From Bacteroidota bacterium (GTDB lineage Bacteria > Bacteroidota > Bacteroidia > NS11-12g > UBA9320), in NCBI GenBank assembly GCA_947468275.1, contig CANIKO010000004.1:167429-231428 (forward strand): a stretch of 64,000 nt of DNA, given 5' to 3'. Position 1 is the first letter of the stretch. Each line of letters starts with the position of its first letter. Shown in pieces: positions 19,565-24,687 of the stretch. The notes beneath the pieces were generated by a model, which searched no databases, was not told the DNA's origin, and was given only the letters and a program-made list of their open reading frames with translations. A program made the position numbers and the translations under genes.

Positions 19565-19612
19565 AAATTTATCACTTGCCATTGGTTTAAACCAATGGCA
19601 AGTGATAAATTT
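19565..19612. repeat. 48-bp perfect spacerless palindrome
   Basis: aaatttatcacttgccattggttt|aaaccaatggcaagtgataaattt, halves are exact reverse complements. Confidence 0.95.
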
Positions 19613-20267
19613 ATAAAATCACCCCATCCGCAATATGAATAATCCTGTCAGCAGAATTAGCAAGTTCTTCATTATGAGTTACTATGACAAAGGTTTGGCC
19701 ATATTTTTCACGCAATTCAAAAAAAAGTTTGTGAAGTTCTTTGGCATTGGCAGAGTCTAAATTTCCAGTAGGTTCATCGGCAAAAACAACTTTAGGAGAA
19801 TTGATTAAAGACCTGGCTACTGCCACACGTTGGGCTTCTCCACCTGACAGTTGAGATGGCTTATTATCCTTTCGGTGGTCAACTCCTAAAAAGGTTAATA
19901 ATTCCAACGCTCTTTCTTCCGTCGCTTTTCTATCGGCTTTACTAATCCATGCTGGGATGCACACGTTTTCCAAAGCCGAAAATTCAGGCAATAAATGATG
20001 AAACTGAAATACAAAACCGATGTGATGATTTCTAAAATCGGATAAAGTATTTCCTTTTAAGTTTGAAATATCCTTTCCTTCAAAAAAGATTTGCCCGCTG
20101 CTAGGTTGGTCTAAGGTTCCTAATAGCTGTAATAGTGTAGTTTTTCCGGCTCCGGATGAACCAACAATGGCTACTATTTCACCAGCATTTATTTGCAGGT
20201 TGATGCCTTTAAGAACCTGAACGGTTCCGTAATTTTTCTTTATGTCTAATGCTTTAATTATTTCCAC
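19611..20267 (-). CDS. ABC transporter ATP-binding protein, LolD/MacB type
   Basis: Walker [25 protein letters not shown], Walker [13 protein letters not shown]. Confidence 0.93.
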
Positions 20268-20399: not shown

Positions 20400-23300
20400 T
20401 TAAAACGCCCTATTAATCCCAACAACATACCTAAAAGCCACATAATTGGCTCCGGTTTCTACTCTGTTTAAAAAGAAAGGAACATCAAAGCGCAAAACCA
20501 ATGGTTGAAGTTTGTTGTACTTTCCAAAATTTATAGACAACGTTGTTCCTAAACCTGCATCGGCTCTTAATCCACCGTATTGCTTTCCATTTCCTAAAAT
20601 ACCGGCATCAGCAAAAGCATAAGGATTGAAACGGAAAGTATTTAACATTTTTGGAGCATTAATTTTAAAGAGTTTTCCAAATTCAAGTTCTAAGTTGATA
20701 GCCGCACCTTTATTACCATTGTAAATATAAAAACTATCCAACCCTTTGCTATTAGTAGCTTTATAACCTGCCATCCCTCTAATATTTAATCCTCCACCCA
20801 TTTGAAAGGCATATTGCCCTGTATTGCCATAGCCTACTATTTCAGCAGGAATAATACCGCGTGAACGGGTAAATTTATTATCAATCAAATCTTCGTTATT
20901 GGCTCCAGATGAAAACAATCTGCTTTCTTTAGGCACATCACCATGAAGATATTGAGTAAATATTCGGCTTTTTAAAACCAGTTTTTTACCAATTGGGTTG
21001 GTATTATTAATTTTTATAGTTAAGCCTGAATAATTAAAATCACTAAATAAGGCTGTGTTTCTTAGTCCAATATTTAATAATCCATTTCCTTTGCGGTAAC
21101 GGAAAGGATGCTGGTAGTAGAGGTTTAGGGTGGCATTAAGTTTATTATTTTCCATTAAGTCTGGATATAATAAGTATTTGTTAGATACTTCTGAAATTGG
21201 ATTTACAAAATTTCCAACTTTGTCATGGAATTGAATAAATTGCTTGCTTCCAAATGCTTTATACGAAATTGAAAATTTATCATTTCTAAATGTTTTTTCT
21301 AATCCAGTTTCGAATAGATTTATACCATCTAAAGTTCTTCCTCTTAAAGATAAATCAAGCATTTTGCCCACCCGGGTTTTATAATTAAGTGAGAAATTTA
21401 ATAAATTACCATTGGGCCCATTTTTCTTATCACCTGTATTTGTGCCAACCCAAATTGTTGCACTATAAATATGTTTAAAATTATAGTAATTGCCCGAAAA
21501 GTTTAAACCAACTTTAATACCATCTCTTTGGTTATACCAAAACTCAGGTCGCCAATAGGTTTTTAGCTTTGTAAAATCAGGAGCAGGAACTATTAATTTT
21601 TCACGTTCAAAACTAAAAGGAAATTTTAAGCTGTTATTTAAACGGTTAATATCGGCCAGCCGGCCACTTGTATCAATAATCACATCCTTAATTCCATATT
21701 GCGATTGAACCCAAAGCATGTCCGTTTTGTTCATCATATCCCAGGATATCCAACGATGGTTTACCTGTGCCTTACCCAATTCTTTATTAAAATAAGTATT
21801 TGGAATATAATAATTTAAACGATTTCCTTTTTTGTCAATTACGGTCACATCTAAAGGCATGTGCATTTCACCTTTTCGCTTTATTTCCACTACATAATCA
21901 TATTTGGAATTAGTAACTTTTGTATATCCTTTTACTTTATAATCAATGGTTTTTGTGGTGGTAAACCAATCATCAAAAAACCAATTTAAATCCACCTTTG
22001 TATAATCAATAATTGAATTACGAAAATCCTCTTCATACGGATGGCAAAATTTCCATTGGTTGAAATAATGTTTCATCGCATCCAAAAACAATTTATCGCC
22101 CAATACATATTGCAAATTATAAAGCATGGTGGCTGTTTTATAATACACCTGACCATAGCCGCCGCCGTGCCTTTCAGCCGAATTAAAATGGTCGGAATGA
22201 GTATTTAATCTTGCAGAGTTTTCATTAATAGCATGATTGATATAACCGGCATATACATAAGCCCAATCTACTGAATTGGGAGTATAATCTTTATTCGACA
22301 ATTTTTTAATACTCCAGGCGGTTAAAAATTGAGTAAACCCTTCATCCATGCAGGCTCTATAAGTTTCGTTATTTCCCACCATTCCAAAAAACCAATTGTG
22401 ACCTACTTCGTGTGCTATTACATATTGATGACCGGGCCAATTGCCACCATCTAATGTCAGCATTGGATATTCCATACCATCGCGGGCATCAGCAGCCACC
22501 ATTTTAGGGTAGGCATACATTCCAAAATCTTGTGAATAGGTTTTAACAACATTAGCCACAAACTTAGACGTAGGCTGCCAGGCATAGGCATTTTGTTCTT
22601 GAGCCAAGGCAATACATTTTATACCATTCCATTCAGTTTCGCCAATTCGATAAGTAGGATCGGTAGTAAATGCGAAATCATGAACATTATTTGCCATCCA
22701 TATCCAGCGTTTATAGGTTCCATTTGGAATCACAGGTGTTGAAATAACTTTTGACGGTTTGGTGAAATTACTAATATCAATTTTTTCTCTTAAGCCATTT
22801 GCATATACTTCGTCCTTATTAGTTAAAACACCCGTAGCCTCGCATATATAATGGTTGGGTAAATCCAATTCCACATAATAAATTCCATAATCGCCATAAA
22901 ATTCTTTGCCAAGATGTTGATCAGTAGTCCATTTAAATTTTCTATCATAAACCGAAAGCCGCGGATACCAATGTACTCCATCAAAATGCTTAAAATTATT
23001 ATGTTCAAACCGTTTCATACGGCGGCCCATGCTACCTTGGTCAAAATAGGTTTTAAAATCCACTTCCATTTTTAGGATTTTGCCGGGAAATAAAGGTGCC
23101 GGCAAATCAATTATCATAATGGTATTATCCACCACAAAAGGAACTTCAGTACCTGCTATTATTACTTTAGAAACTTTGGTTCCTAATTTTTCCTGTTCAT
23201 ATTTTCCAAATTTATTAAACACTTTTCCGCCTTTTTCCATTTCATCCTTATAGCTTCCCGGTTGAAACGCATTTTGGGTTAATCTGAAATATAATTTATA

Positions 23301-23555
23301 AATTGTATCGGGTGAATTGTTGGCATATTCCAATGTTTCGCTGCCGGTTATTATCTCAGTCGTATCATTTAGTCGAGCCTTTATATGATAGGAAACATCC
23401 TGTTGCCAATAACCGACAAATGGTTTTCTATTTTTCCAATACAGATTATTATCTTCGCTTTGATAGGCGGATAGAGCACTTTCAGGTTCAAAAATTTGTG
23501 CCTGAGAGCTATAAAAAATAAATGAAAATACTGCGAGAAGGCAATGTTTATACAT
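20400..23555 (-). CDS. M1 family metallopeptidase with C-terminal outer-membrane-barrel-like region
   Basis: GMEYPML (GxMEN-like), VIAHEVGHNWFFGMVGNNE zinc site, signal peptide; C-term ~385 aa with amphipathic strands, IRGM motif, terminal Phe. Confidence 0.88.
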   Translation of the reverse strand: MYKHCLLAVFSFIFYSSQAQIFEPESALSAYQSEDNNLYWKNRKPFVGYWQQDVSYHIKARLNDTTEIITGSETLEYANNSPDTIYKLYFRLTQNAFQPGSYKDEMEKGGKVFNKFGKYEQEKLGTKVSKVIIAGTEVPFVVDNTIMIIDLPAPLFPGKILKMEVDFKTYFDQGSMGRRMKRFEHNNFKHFDGVHWYPRLSVYDRKFKWTTDQHLGKEFYGDYGIYYVELDLPNHYICEATGVLTNKDEVYANGLREKIDISNFTKPSKVISTPVIPNGTYKRWIWMANNVHDFAFTTDPTYRIGETEWNGIKCIALAQEQNAYAWQPTSKFVANVVKTYSQDFGMYAYPKMVAADARDGMEYPMLTLDGGNWPGHQYVIAHEVGHNWFFGMVGNNETYRACMDEGFTQFLTAWSIKKLSNKDYTPNSVDWAYVYAGYINHAINENSARLNTHSDHFNSAERHGGGYGQVYYKTATMLYNLQYVLGDKLFLDAMKHYFNQWKFCHPYEEDFRNSIIDYTKVDLNWFFDDWFTTTKTIDYKVKGYTKVTNSKYDYVVEIKRKGEMHMPLDVTVIDKKGNRLNYYIPNTYFNKELGKAQVNHRWISWDMMNKTDMLWVQSQYGIKDVIIDTSGRLADINRLNNSLKFPFSFEREKLIVPAPDFTKLKTYWRPEFWYNQRDGIKVGLNFSGNYYNFKHIYSATIWVGTNTGDKKNGPNGNLLNFSLNYKTRVGKMLDLSLRGRTLDGINLFETGLEKTFRNDKFSISYKAFGSKQFIQFHDKVGNFVNPISEVSNKYLLYPDLMENNKLNATLNLYYQHPFRYRKGNGLLNIGLRNTALFSDFNYSGLTIKINNTNPIGKKLVLKSRIFTQYLHGDVPKESRLFSSGANNEDLIDNKFTRSRGIIPAEIVGYGNTGQYAFQMGGGLNIRGMAGYKATNSKGLDSFYIYNGNKGAAINLELEFGKLFKINAPKMLNTFRFNPYAFADAGILGNGKQYGGLRADAGLGTTLSINFGKYNKLQPLVLRFDVPFFLNRVETGANYVAFRYVVGINRAF

Positions 23556-23584: not shown

Positions 23585-24238
23585 CTACTTTTTTGATTTT
23601 TGGGGCCAAAGTTGATAACCCATTCCAAAATATACTCCTATTTGCCCAATATAAGAATAGGCAGTATTTCCAAAAATTTTGAAATACTGTTTTCCCGAGC
23701 GATTTTTTTCTGAACTATTTGTTGCGTATGTTCCAATTTCTAAATTCCATTTATTACTTACTCTATATGTAGCCCCTAAAGCTAATTGTAAATATAAGAA
23801 ATCATACTTTTGTGTATAGGCCAGTGTAGAGTAATAATCTCCAAAATCATTACCTTTAAAATGATATTGAGCACTTTCTTTGCCTTTTCCAAATACCAAA
23901 GAAGGGTTTATATATAAAGATAATTTTCTTTTCTTTCCTCTCATACGACCAGATGTTTTTAAAAATGCTCCTCCTGAAATAAAAGAACCTTTGGTATGAA
24001 TATTTGAAAGATTATAATAGTTAGAATGAGGGTTGGAAATACCATAACCAAAGCTGAGATTTATTCCAAGAGTTTCATAAATACTAAATAATGTCTTACT
24101 ATATAAAGCCATACCTTTTTCTAAAGGCATAACACCAACTGAAGTTAGTAATTGAGGATTAATATCTGAATTATTTTTCTTTTGTCCCATTATAAGTATT
24201 GGACATAATAATAAAGCTATAACAAAATTAATTTTCAT
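23585..24238 (-). CDS. hypothetical outer-membrane beta-barrel-like protein
   Basis: signal peptide; alternating aromatic strands (GISNPHSNYYN, LYINPSLVFGKG, YIGQIGVYFGMGYQ). Confidence 0.6.
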   Translation of the reverse strand: MKINFVIALLLCPILIMGQKKNNSDINPQLLTSVGVMPLEKGMALYSKTLFSIYETLGINLSFGYGISNPHSNYYNLSNIHTKGSFISGGAFLKTSGRMRGKKRKLSLYINPSLVFGKGKESAQYHFKGNDFGDYYSTLAYTQKYDFLYLQLALGATYRVSNKWNLEIGTYATNSSEKNRSGKQYFKIFGNTAYSYIGQIGVYFGMGYQLWPQKSKK

Positions 24239-24687
24239 TACCTTATATAAAATACTGGATATGGTACAAATGAGGTATAGTGTTTAACATCTATAAATGA
24301 ATCTTGCAGATAGAAATAATTAATAAATTTTGCATTTTTAAAGGAAGATTCTTTTATATAAAGCGTATCAAAGTTCATTAAAGTTTTCTTATCACCTACT
24401 GAGGCATGGATTTTATAAAAGATTACAAATGAGTCAATCTCTGTTCCTCTTGTAATCCAGAATTTCGTTGAGTTAGCATTCATATCAATTCCGGGAAGGT
24501 CATTCTGTAGCACAGGTTTCTTAGATTTATTAATGCTTGCCGATTGCGTTTCGAAGTTTTGATTTCCGTCGTGAAAAACTATTTGAATAGCGGGTTCTTC
24601 ATCAAATCCAAAATCAATTTCAGTCCCACATTCAGAACTACAGAATAAGAAAAATAAAAGAATAATAATTAGGTTTCTCATCGACAT
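24238..24687 (-). CDS. hypothetical lipoprotein
   Basis: N-terminal hydrophobic segment ending in FCSSECG; translationally coupled to downstream barrel-like ORF. Confidence 0.55.
   Translation of the reverse strand: MSMRNLIIILLFFLFCSSECGTEIDFGFDEEPAIQIVFHDGNQNFETQSASINKSKKPVLQNDLPGIDMNANSTKFWITRGTEIDSFVIFYKIHASVGDKKTLMNFDTLYIKESSFKNAKFINYFYLQDSFIDVKHYTSFVPYPVFYIR

Follow-up and report, generated by a model that had tools for sequence, protein, structure and literature searches.

Gene and domain layout

The window, the 64,000-nucleotide stretch of Bacteroidota DNA analysed here, carries a single open reading frame at 20400-23555 (coding 20403-23555, TAA stop at 20400-20402; this and all window features below lie on the minus strand). 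It encodes a protein of 1051 residues in which an Omp85-type barrel is, almost certainly, fused to a peptidase. Specifically, the data indicate an M1 zinc aminopeptidase joined to an outer-membrane barrel that has 16 strands and belongs to the BamA/TamA type. An earlier note, made from the DNA letters, had singled out this frame, and all the motifs that it quoted were found in it. The fusion is not an assembly artefact, since full-length orthologues, 42-88% identical, occur in many independent genomes; a chimaera was rejected on the same ground.

The first 19 residues (23499-23555) read from the sequence as a Sec/SPI signal peptide. Its cleavage would expose Q20, a residue that is Gln in 61 of 64 homologues and that fits the Q-rule of Bacteroidota. 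The N-terminal beta domain and the catalytic domain of the M1 peptidase follow at residues ~45-532 (21960-23423), as delimited by PF01433 and by the structural match to IRAP and ERAP1. PF01433 matches residues 378-530 (E 2.9e-14, 53.6 bits against a curated cut-off of 27.7) and is the only Pfam model above its cut-off in the whole protein; absent is PF00149, which we take to be the calcineurin-like phosphoesterase family despite the name "metalloprotease" attached to it among Omp85 proteins. The HExxH-(18)-E zinc site of the family is complete in an alignment of 64 homologues: H382, E383 and H386 of the HEVGH motif (residues 382-386; 22398-22412) and the third zinc ligand, E405 (22341-22343), are present in all of them. 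The GMEYP exopeptidase motif (residues 360-364; 22464-22478) is likewise invariant, including E362 (64/64), while Y471, the proposed catalytic proton donor in VYYK (22143-22145), is kept in 63 of 64 and its partner in the Tyr/Lys motif, K473, in all 64. The PF01433 match and the intact catalytic residues thereby bear out the proposal of an M1 peptidase at the N-terminus, and the protein very probably has aminopeptidase activity.

After the catalytic domain comes a small all-beta domain (residues 535-627; 21675-21953), delimited by DSSP on the model and by short M1 relatives, whose C-termini fall just past it; the M1 part including this domain thus covers residues ~45-627. A modelled linker (residues 628-663; 21567-21674) then leads to the barrel. 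POTRA domains are usual in Omp85 proteins, though missing in several accepted subfamilies, and none was found in the window protein: the domain before the linker is all-beta, and the linker, at only 36 residues, is too short for a POTRA domain between the M1 part and the barrel. An AlphaFold2 model of the full-length protein (pLDDT 86.7, pTM 0.84) reproduces the barrel strands obtained when the tail is modelled alone and matches ERAP/IRAP M1 structures with an E-value of 2e-22. As such, the window protein has the M1 fold and zinc site in common with ERAP1, IRAP and other M1 aminopeptidases, but the barrel occupies the place of the C-terminal helical domain that those enzymes carry.

The C-terminal barrel

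The earlier note had described the last ~385 residues (20400-21560) as a strand-rich, amphipathic, Omp85-like barrel ending in Phe, and this description holds closely. In the model the first strand begins at residue 664 (window position 21566), and the barrel extends over residues 664-1051 (20403-21566), the last of which is Phe. AlphaFold2 applied to an alignment of 64 tails from independent genomes predicts 16 barrel strands spanning 664-1047, with a pLDDT of 89.3 and a pTM of 0.87; the suggested structure prediction therefore yielded an Omp85-type barrel, and the usual helical C-terminal M1 domain and a soluble beta-sandwich or other soluble tail were rejected on the strength of it. When strand residues are averaged over the alignment, the alternation of lipid-facing and lumen-facing positions reaches 1.93, against 0.85 +/- 0.15 in shuffled sequences, none of which (0/5000) attains the observed value. 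In a Foldseek search of the PDB with the tail model, all 50 matches listed are BamA, TamA or Sam50 (best E 6.6e-08), at modest TM-scores (0.34-0.50 by query length, 0.23-0.57 by target length) and an rmsd of at least 7 A.

Sequence profiles speak less clearly. The window tail matches no Pfam or NCBIfam model, and searching the PDB sequences with a profile of the tail yielded nothing. The BamA model TIGR03303 matches eight of the 64 homologous tails weakly (best 5.2e-07) and none of nine control Bacteroidota outer-membrane proteins of FadL/PorV/BamG type. In hhalign, TamL ranks highest (probability 35%, E 4e-4), with GGGLNLRGY of the tail aligned on GGSNSLRAW, while the probability for BamA is 0.3% and the FadL control also falls below TamL. 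The comparison with Omp85 profiles that had been recommended is thus weak at best: the eight relatives and, faintly, TamL speak for it, the window tail itself and the hhalign comparison with BamA do not. Membership of the Omp85 superfamily is well supported by predicted fold and motifs, and weakly by sequence profile.

The motifs in question are those of the lid-lock. The two signatures of Omp85 proteins are (V/I)RG(Y/F), found at the L6 tip, and (F/G)xDxG, which belongs to strand 13; an Arg-Asp salt bridge joins them (PMC4490367). The modelled barrel has a long L6 of 75 residues between strands 11 and 12 (residues 874-948; 20712-20936), and within it lies NIRGM (924-928; 20772-20786), the counterpart of the first signature, with R926 in all 64 homologues and a consensus of NLRGY. 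Its partner, FADAG (981-985; 20601-20615), sits on strand 13 (974-989), with F981, D983 and G985 each conserved in 64 of 64. The resemblance to an (I/L)RG(Y/F) motif that had been remarked on in the tail therefore corresponds to the L6 signature proper, with its FxDxG partner, and both motifs occupy the loop and strand expected from FhaC, TamA and BamA. The FxDxG form is that of the narrow BamA/TamA type, as opposed to the wide GxDxG of FhaC. Both motifs are kept in the window's order; among distant M1-tailed forms, L056, L062 and L063 keep at least the RG part, and the remainder have lost the lid-lock motifs.

The model also bears on orientation. Long loops of outer-membrane proteins are extracellular. 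In the predicted barrel, the odd-numbered strand connections comprise 3, 14, 2, 36, 6, 75, 7 and 14 residues and the even-numbered ones 3, 2, 2, 2, 3, 15 and 10. The long odd loops and short even turns place both barrel termini, and hence the N-terminal M1 domain, in the periplasm. PlpD, a lipase with a comparable layout that was formerly thought to be displayed at the surface, has been shown to remain in the periplasm (PMC11116518). From the model and this analogy, the M1 domain probably faces the periplasm. Of the two placements that the earlier note had offered, surface or periplasm, the second is thereby favoured and the first is not.

Gene neighbourhood

Directly downstream of the fusion gene lies a gene for a LolD-like ABC ATPase (19611-20267), assigned by TIGR02211 and by synteny; TIGR02211 is its best model, with an E-value of 2.1e-83 and 279 bits, below the cut-off of 308. 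A LolD-like gene is next, on the same strand, in all 13 loci of the window's family (f1) with downstream sequence, and also in L164 (that is, in L006-L011, L013, L014, L016, L018-L021 and L164), and in L014, L020 and L164 the two genes overlap as TAATG. Across the wider set of loci there is no general neighbour, the LolD-like gene being conserved only in f1 and L164. The arrangement hints, from gene order and within one family, at a link between the fusion gene and outer-membrane biogenesis.

Upstream lie two overlapping reading frames of 217 and 149 residues (23585-24238 and 24238-24687, minus strand), one signal-peptide-like and the other a possible lipoprotein. Neither matches Pfam or NCBIfam, and they recur in one relative only (L008). 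In L224, L225 and L228, a short M1 gene adjoins recR-ybaB-dnaX-like genes, a conserved setting that differs from that of the long form.

Distribution and history

In the window's order, 101 of 108 genomes contain a match and about 70 an orthologue at 42% identity or above, and these orthologues nearly always extend to residue 1051, save where a contig ends. A survey of 393 genomes across the phylum counted a long form (frames of 986-1602 residues) in about 40 and a short form (about 605-731 residues) in about 90. Every one of the 13 distant long forms tested is recognised by a tail HMM, mostly with E-values of 1e-10 or better and at the weakest with 4e-5, whereas the short M1 forms give no significant match. 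The proposed survey of M1 homologues thus found homologous tails across the phylum alongside M1 proteins that have none. Short Bacteroidota M1 proteins (~610-650 residues) share the same M1 domain at 29-35% identity and end just past a shared IDxSxRLADxNxxNN motif; unlike the window protein, they lack the barrel.

The short forms are nested among the long ones on a tree of the M1 part, so that loss of the tail in the short lineages is the simplest reading. Gene fission was also considered for these lineages and rejected: in eight genomes examined, no tail-like barrel gene lies beside the short M1 gene. On a tree of barrels, the M1 tails form one group (90/65), separate from a family of stand-alone barrels (100/99), which fits a single fusion. 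The phylogenies suggest that the fusion took place once, anciently, and that the tail was later lost in lineages that keep an M1 protein of ~620 residues; judged by sequence, the fusion is old, vertically inherited and widespread in Bacteroidota.

The stand-alone barrels, of ~400-465 residues and devoid of M1, are present in numerous f26 genomes, where the M1 protein is of the short kind; families f24 and f45, whose M1 protein is long, have them too. They are not regarded simply as the missing half of short M1 proteins, because f24 and f45 carry both. They are homologous to the M1 tail in the same register (L242 and L248 are examples), with GGANLRGY and DAGLG and profile E-values down to 2.4e-47; unlike in the window protein, the signal peptide directly precedes the barrel and there is no M1 domain. 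These barrels match no Pfam or NCBIfam family. They were found at L237-L243 and L245-L265 (for example L242:1495-2664 and L248:1423-2655), and several of the loci adjoin acetate kinase and greA.

Three further observations concern relatives of the window protein. A second M1 branch (L048, L049, L050, L051, L052 and L055; ~30% identity, 991-1120 residues) has its own strand-rich C-terminal ~400 residues, in which the lid-lock is mostly missing and the tail HMM match is marginal; by sequence, it is probably also barrel-fused. A full-length orthologue, 40% identical, lies on a contig labelled Phycisphaerales (Planctomycetota; L145), probably a misbinned Bacteroidota contig. The L032 orthologue matches well except that three TGA codons interrupt its frame, which probably reflects either an error in the draft genome or a gene in decay.

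Relation to known systems

The window protein resembles PlpD, the one characterised enzyme-Omp85 fusion, and the PL-Omp85 group: in both, an enzyme lies N-terminal to a 16-stranded Omp85-type barrel on one chain, with the enzyme (here by prediction) in the periplasm. The likeness to patatin-barrel proteins drawn in the earlier note is therefore apt for the layout, although the enzymes are unrelated. PlpD has a patatin-like lipase and a POTRA domain, whereas the window protein has an M1 metallopeptidase and no POTRA domain and is thus not a PL-Omp85 member; moreover, its barrel goes unrecognised by Pfam PF01103, unlike that of PlpD and PL-Omp85. With BamA, TamA and TamL the tail shares barrel fold, L6 RG motif, strand-13 FxDxG and terminal aromatic residue, but those proteins have POTRA domains and a known assembly function where the window protein has a peptidase. 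In the "Metallo" subfamily of Omp85 proteins, too, the barrel is preceded by a domain that depends on metal and is not a POTRA.

In the accessible part of their article, Heinz and Lithgow (2014) distinguish ten Omp85 subfamilies, of which the "metalloprotease" one is defined by PF00149 and none is named for M1 (PMC4104836); the same ten are given by the authors of the PlpD study. The "Metallo" proteins carry a PF00149 domain, in contrast to the genuine M1 peptidase of the window protein. A literature search, whose coverage excluded subscription papers and preprints, found no description of an M1-barrel or Omp85-peptidase fusion, in agreement with the remark of the earlier note that the architecture was not a familiar one. 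Since no such paper was found and none of the ten subfamilies named in the accessible text is an M1 one, the fusion appears to be undescribed, within the known class of enzyme-Omp85 fusions.

Proposed function

As a whole, the data are best explained, with a moderate degree of confidence, by an outer-membrane-anchored, periplasm-facing M1 zinc aminopeptidase with a trimming role. According to this model, the protein would be exported by Sec and its signal peptide cut before Gln. The 16-stranded Omp85-type barrel would then insert into the outer membrane and form its lid-lock from the L6 RG motif and the strand-13 FxDxG, leaving the M1 domain to hang at the periplasmic mouth of the barrel, where other Omp85 proteins hold POTRA domains or, in PlpD, the lipase. 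There it could trim N-terminal residues of peptides that reach the periplasm, and also exported proteins or failed outer-membrane protein fragments whose N-terminus is not protected by pyroglutamate. Whether the role is indeed such tethered trimming of peptides and unprotected proteins is an even call, and any assignment of substrate and physiological role is a weak one. Exported proteins of Porphyromonas gingivalis owe stability to their pyroglutamate caps, which presumably shield them from aminopeptidases (PMC10653852). The fusion is a candidate for part of the pressure behind such capping, the capping data being from P. gingivalis. A stronger version is rather unlikely. In it, the fusion would be the outer-membrane surveillance enzyme of N-termini that the Q-rule guards against, kept by its barrel on the route of outer-membrane proteins and lipoproteins and destroying exported proteins without pyroglutamate; the barrel might then help to recognise clients and be more than an anchor.

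Other readings are less likely. Bacteroidota show many surface enzymes and Omp85-type barrels include translocases such as FhaC, so the barrel or BAM might carry the peptidase outside for nutritional digestion, as once proposed for PlpD under type Vd secretion. We consider this improbable: in a barrel with an even number of strands, an N-terminal domain that precedes strand 1 begins on the periplasmic side, a folded M1 domain of 600 residues would need to pass a lid-locked barrel whose FxDxG is of the narrow BamA/TamA type and not the wide GxDxG of FhaC, and surface display of PlpD was itself tested and rejected (PMC11116518). Alternatively, the M1 domain could stand in for POTRA domains as the substrate-handling module of an insertase or translocase resembling BAM or TAM. 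Outer-membrane protein assembly would then be coupled to the removal of stalled clients, and the M1 domain would be a covalently attached equivalent of the BepA that works at BAM. Every characterised Omp85 protein except PlpD assembles or translocates proteins, the lid-lock is conserved in full among the 64 homologues, and a LolD gene adjoins in the window's family. This reading is nonetheless doubtful, as there is no POTRA domain, both motifs are lost in distant M1 tails, whole lineages have lost the tail yet keep the M1 part, and M1 enzymes, being aminopeptidases, are ill-suited to removing folded or stalled clients by internal cuts.

The placing of an exopeptidase at a barrel opening would also suit a peptide channel, through which peptides enter to be trimmed at the periplasmic mouth, coupling import to digestion; the conserved L6 lid-lock, which implies a mostly plugged lumen, and the finding of no transporter signature make this a poor prospect as well. 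By far the least credible reading takes the tail for a soluble domain rich in beta structure, or the fusion for an artefact: no curated family matches the tail, but the 16-stranded model, the residue alternation, the Omp85-only structural matches, the invariant lid-lock and the dozens of independent genomes that carry a full-length orthologue all speak against it.

With this protein, the few known enzyme-Omp85 fusions come to include a genuine peptidase. It would be a further case in which an enzyme with no part in assembly has taken over the Omp85 scaffold, a reuse for which PlpD gave the first indication. The family has been hidden, in that databases recognise the M1 part alone and its sister stand-alone barrels bear no annotation at all. 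Additionally, the fusion offers a concrete candidate for the aminopeptidase pressure that is thought to explain pyroglutamate capping in Bacteroidota (PMC10653852).
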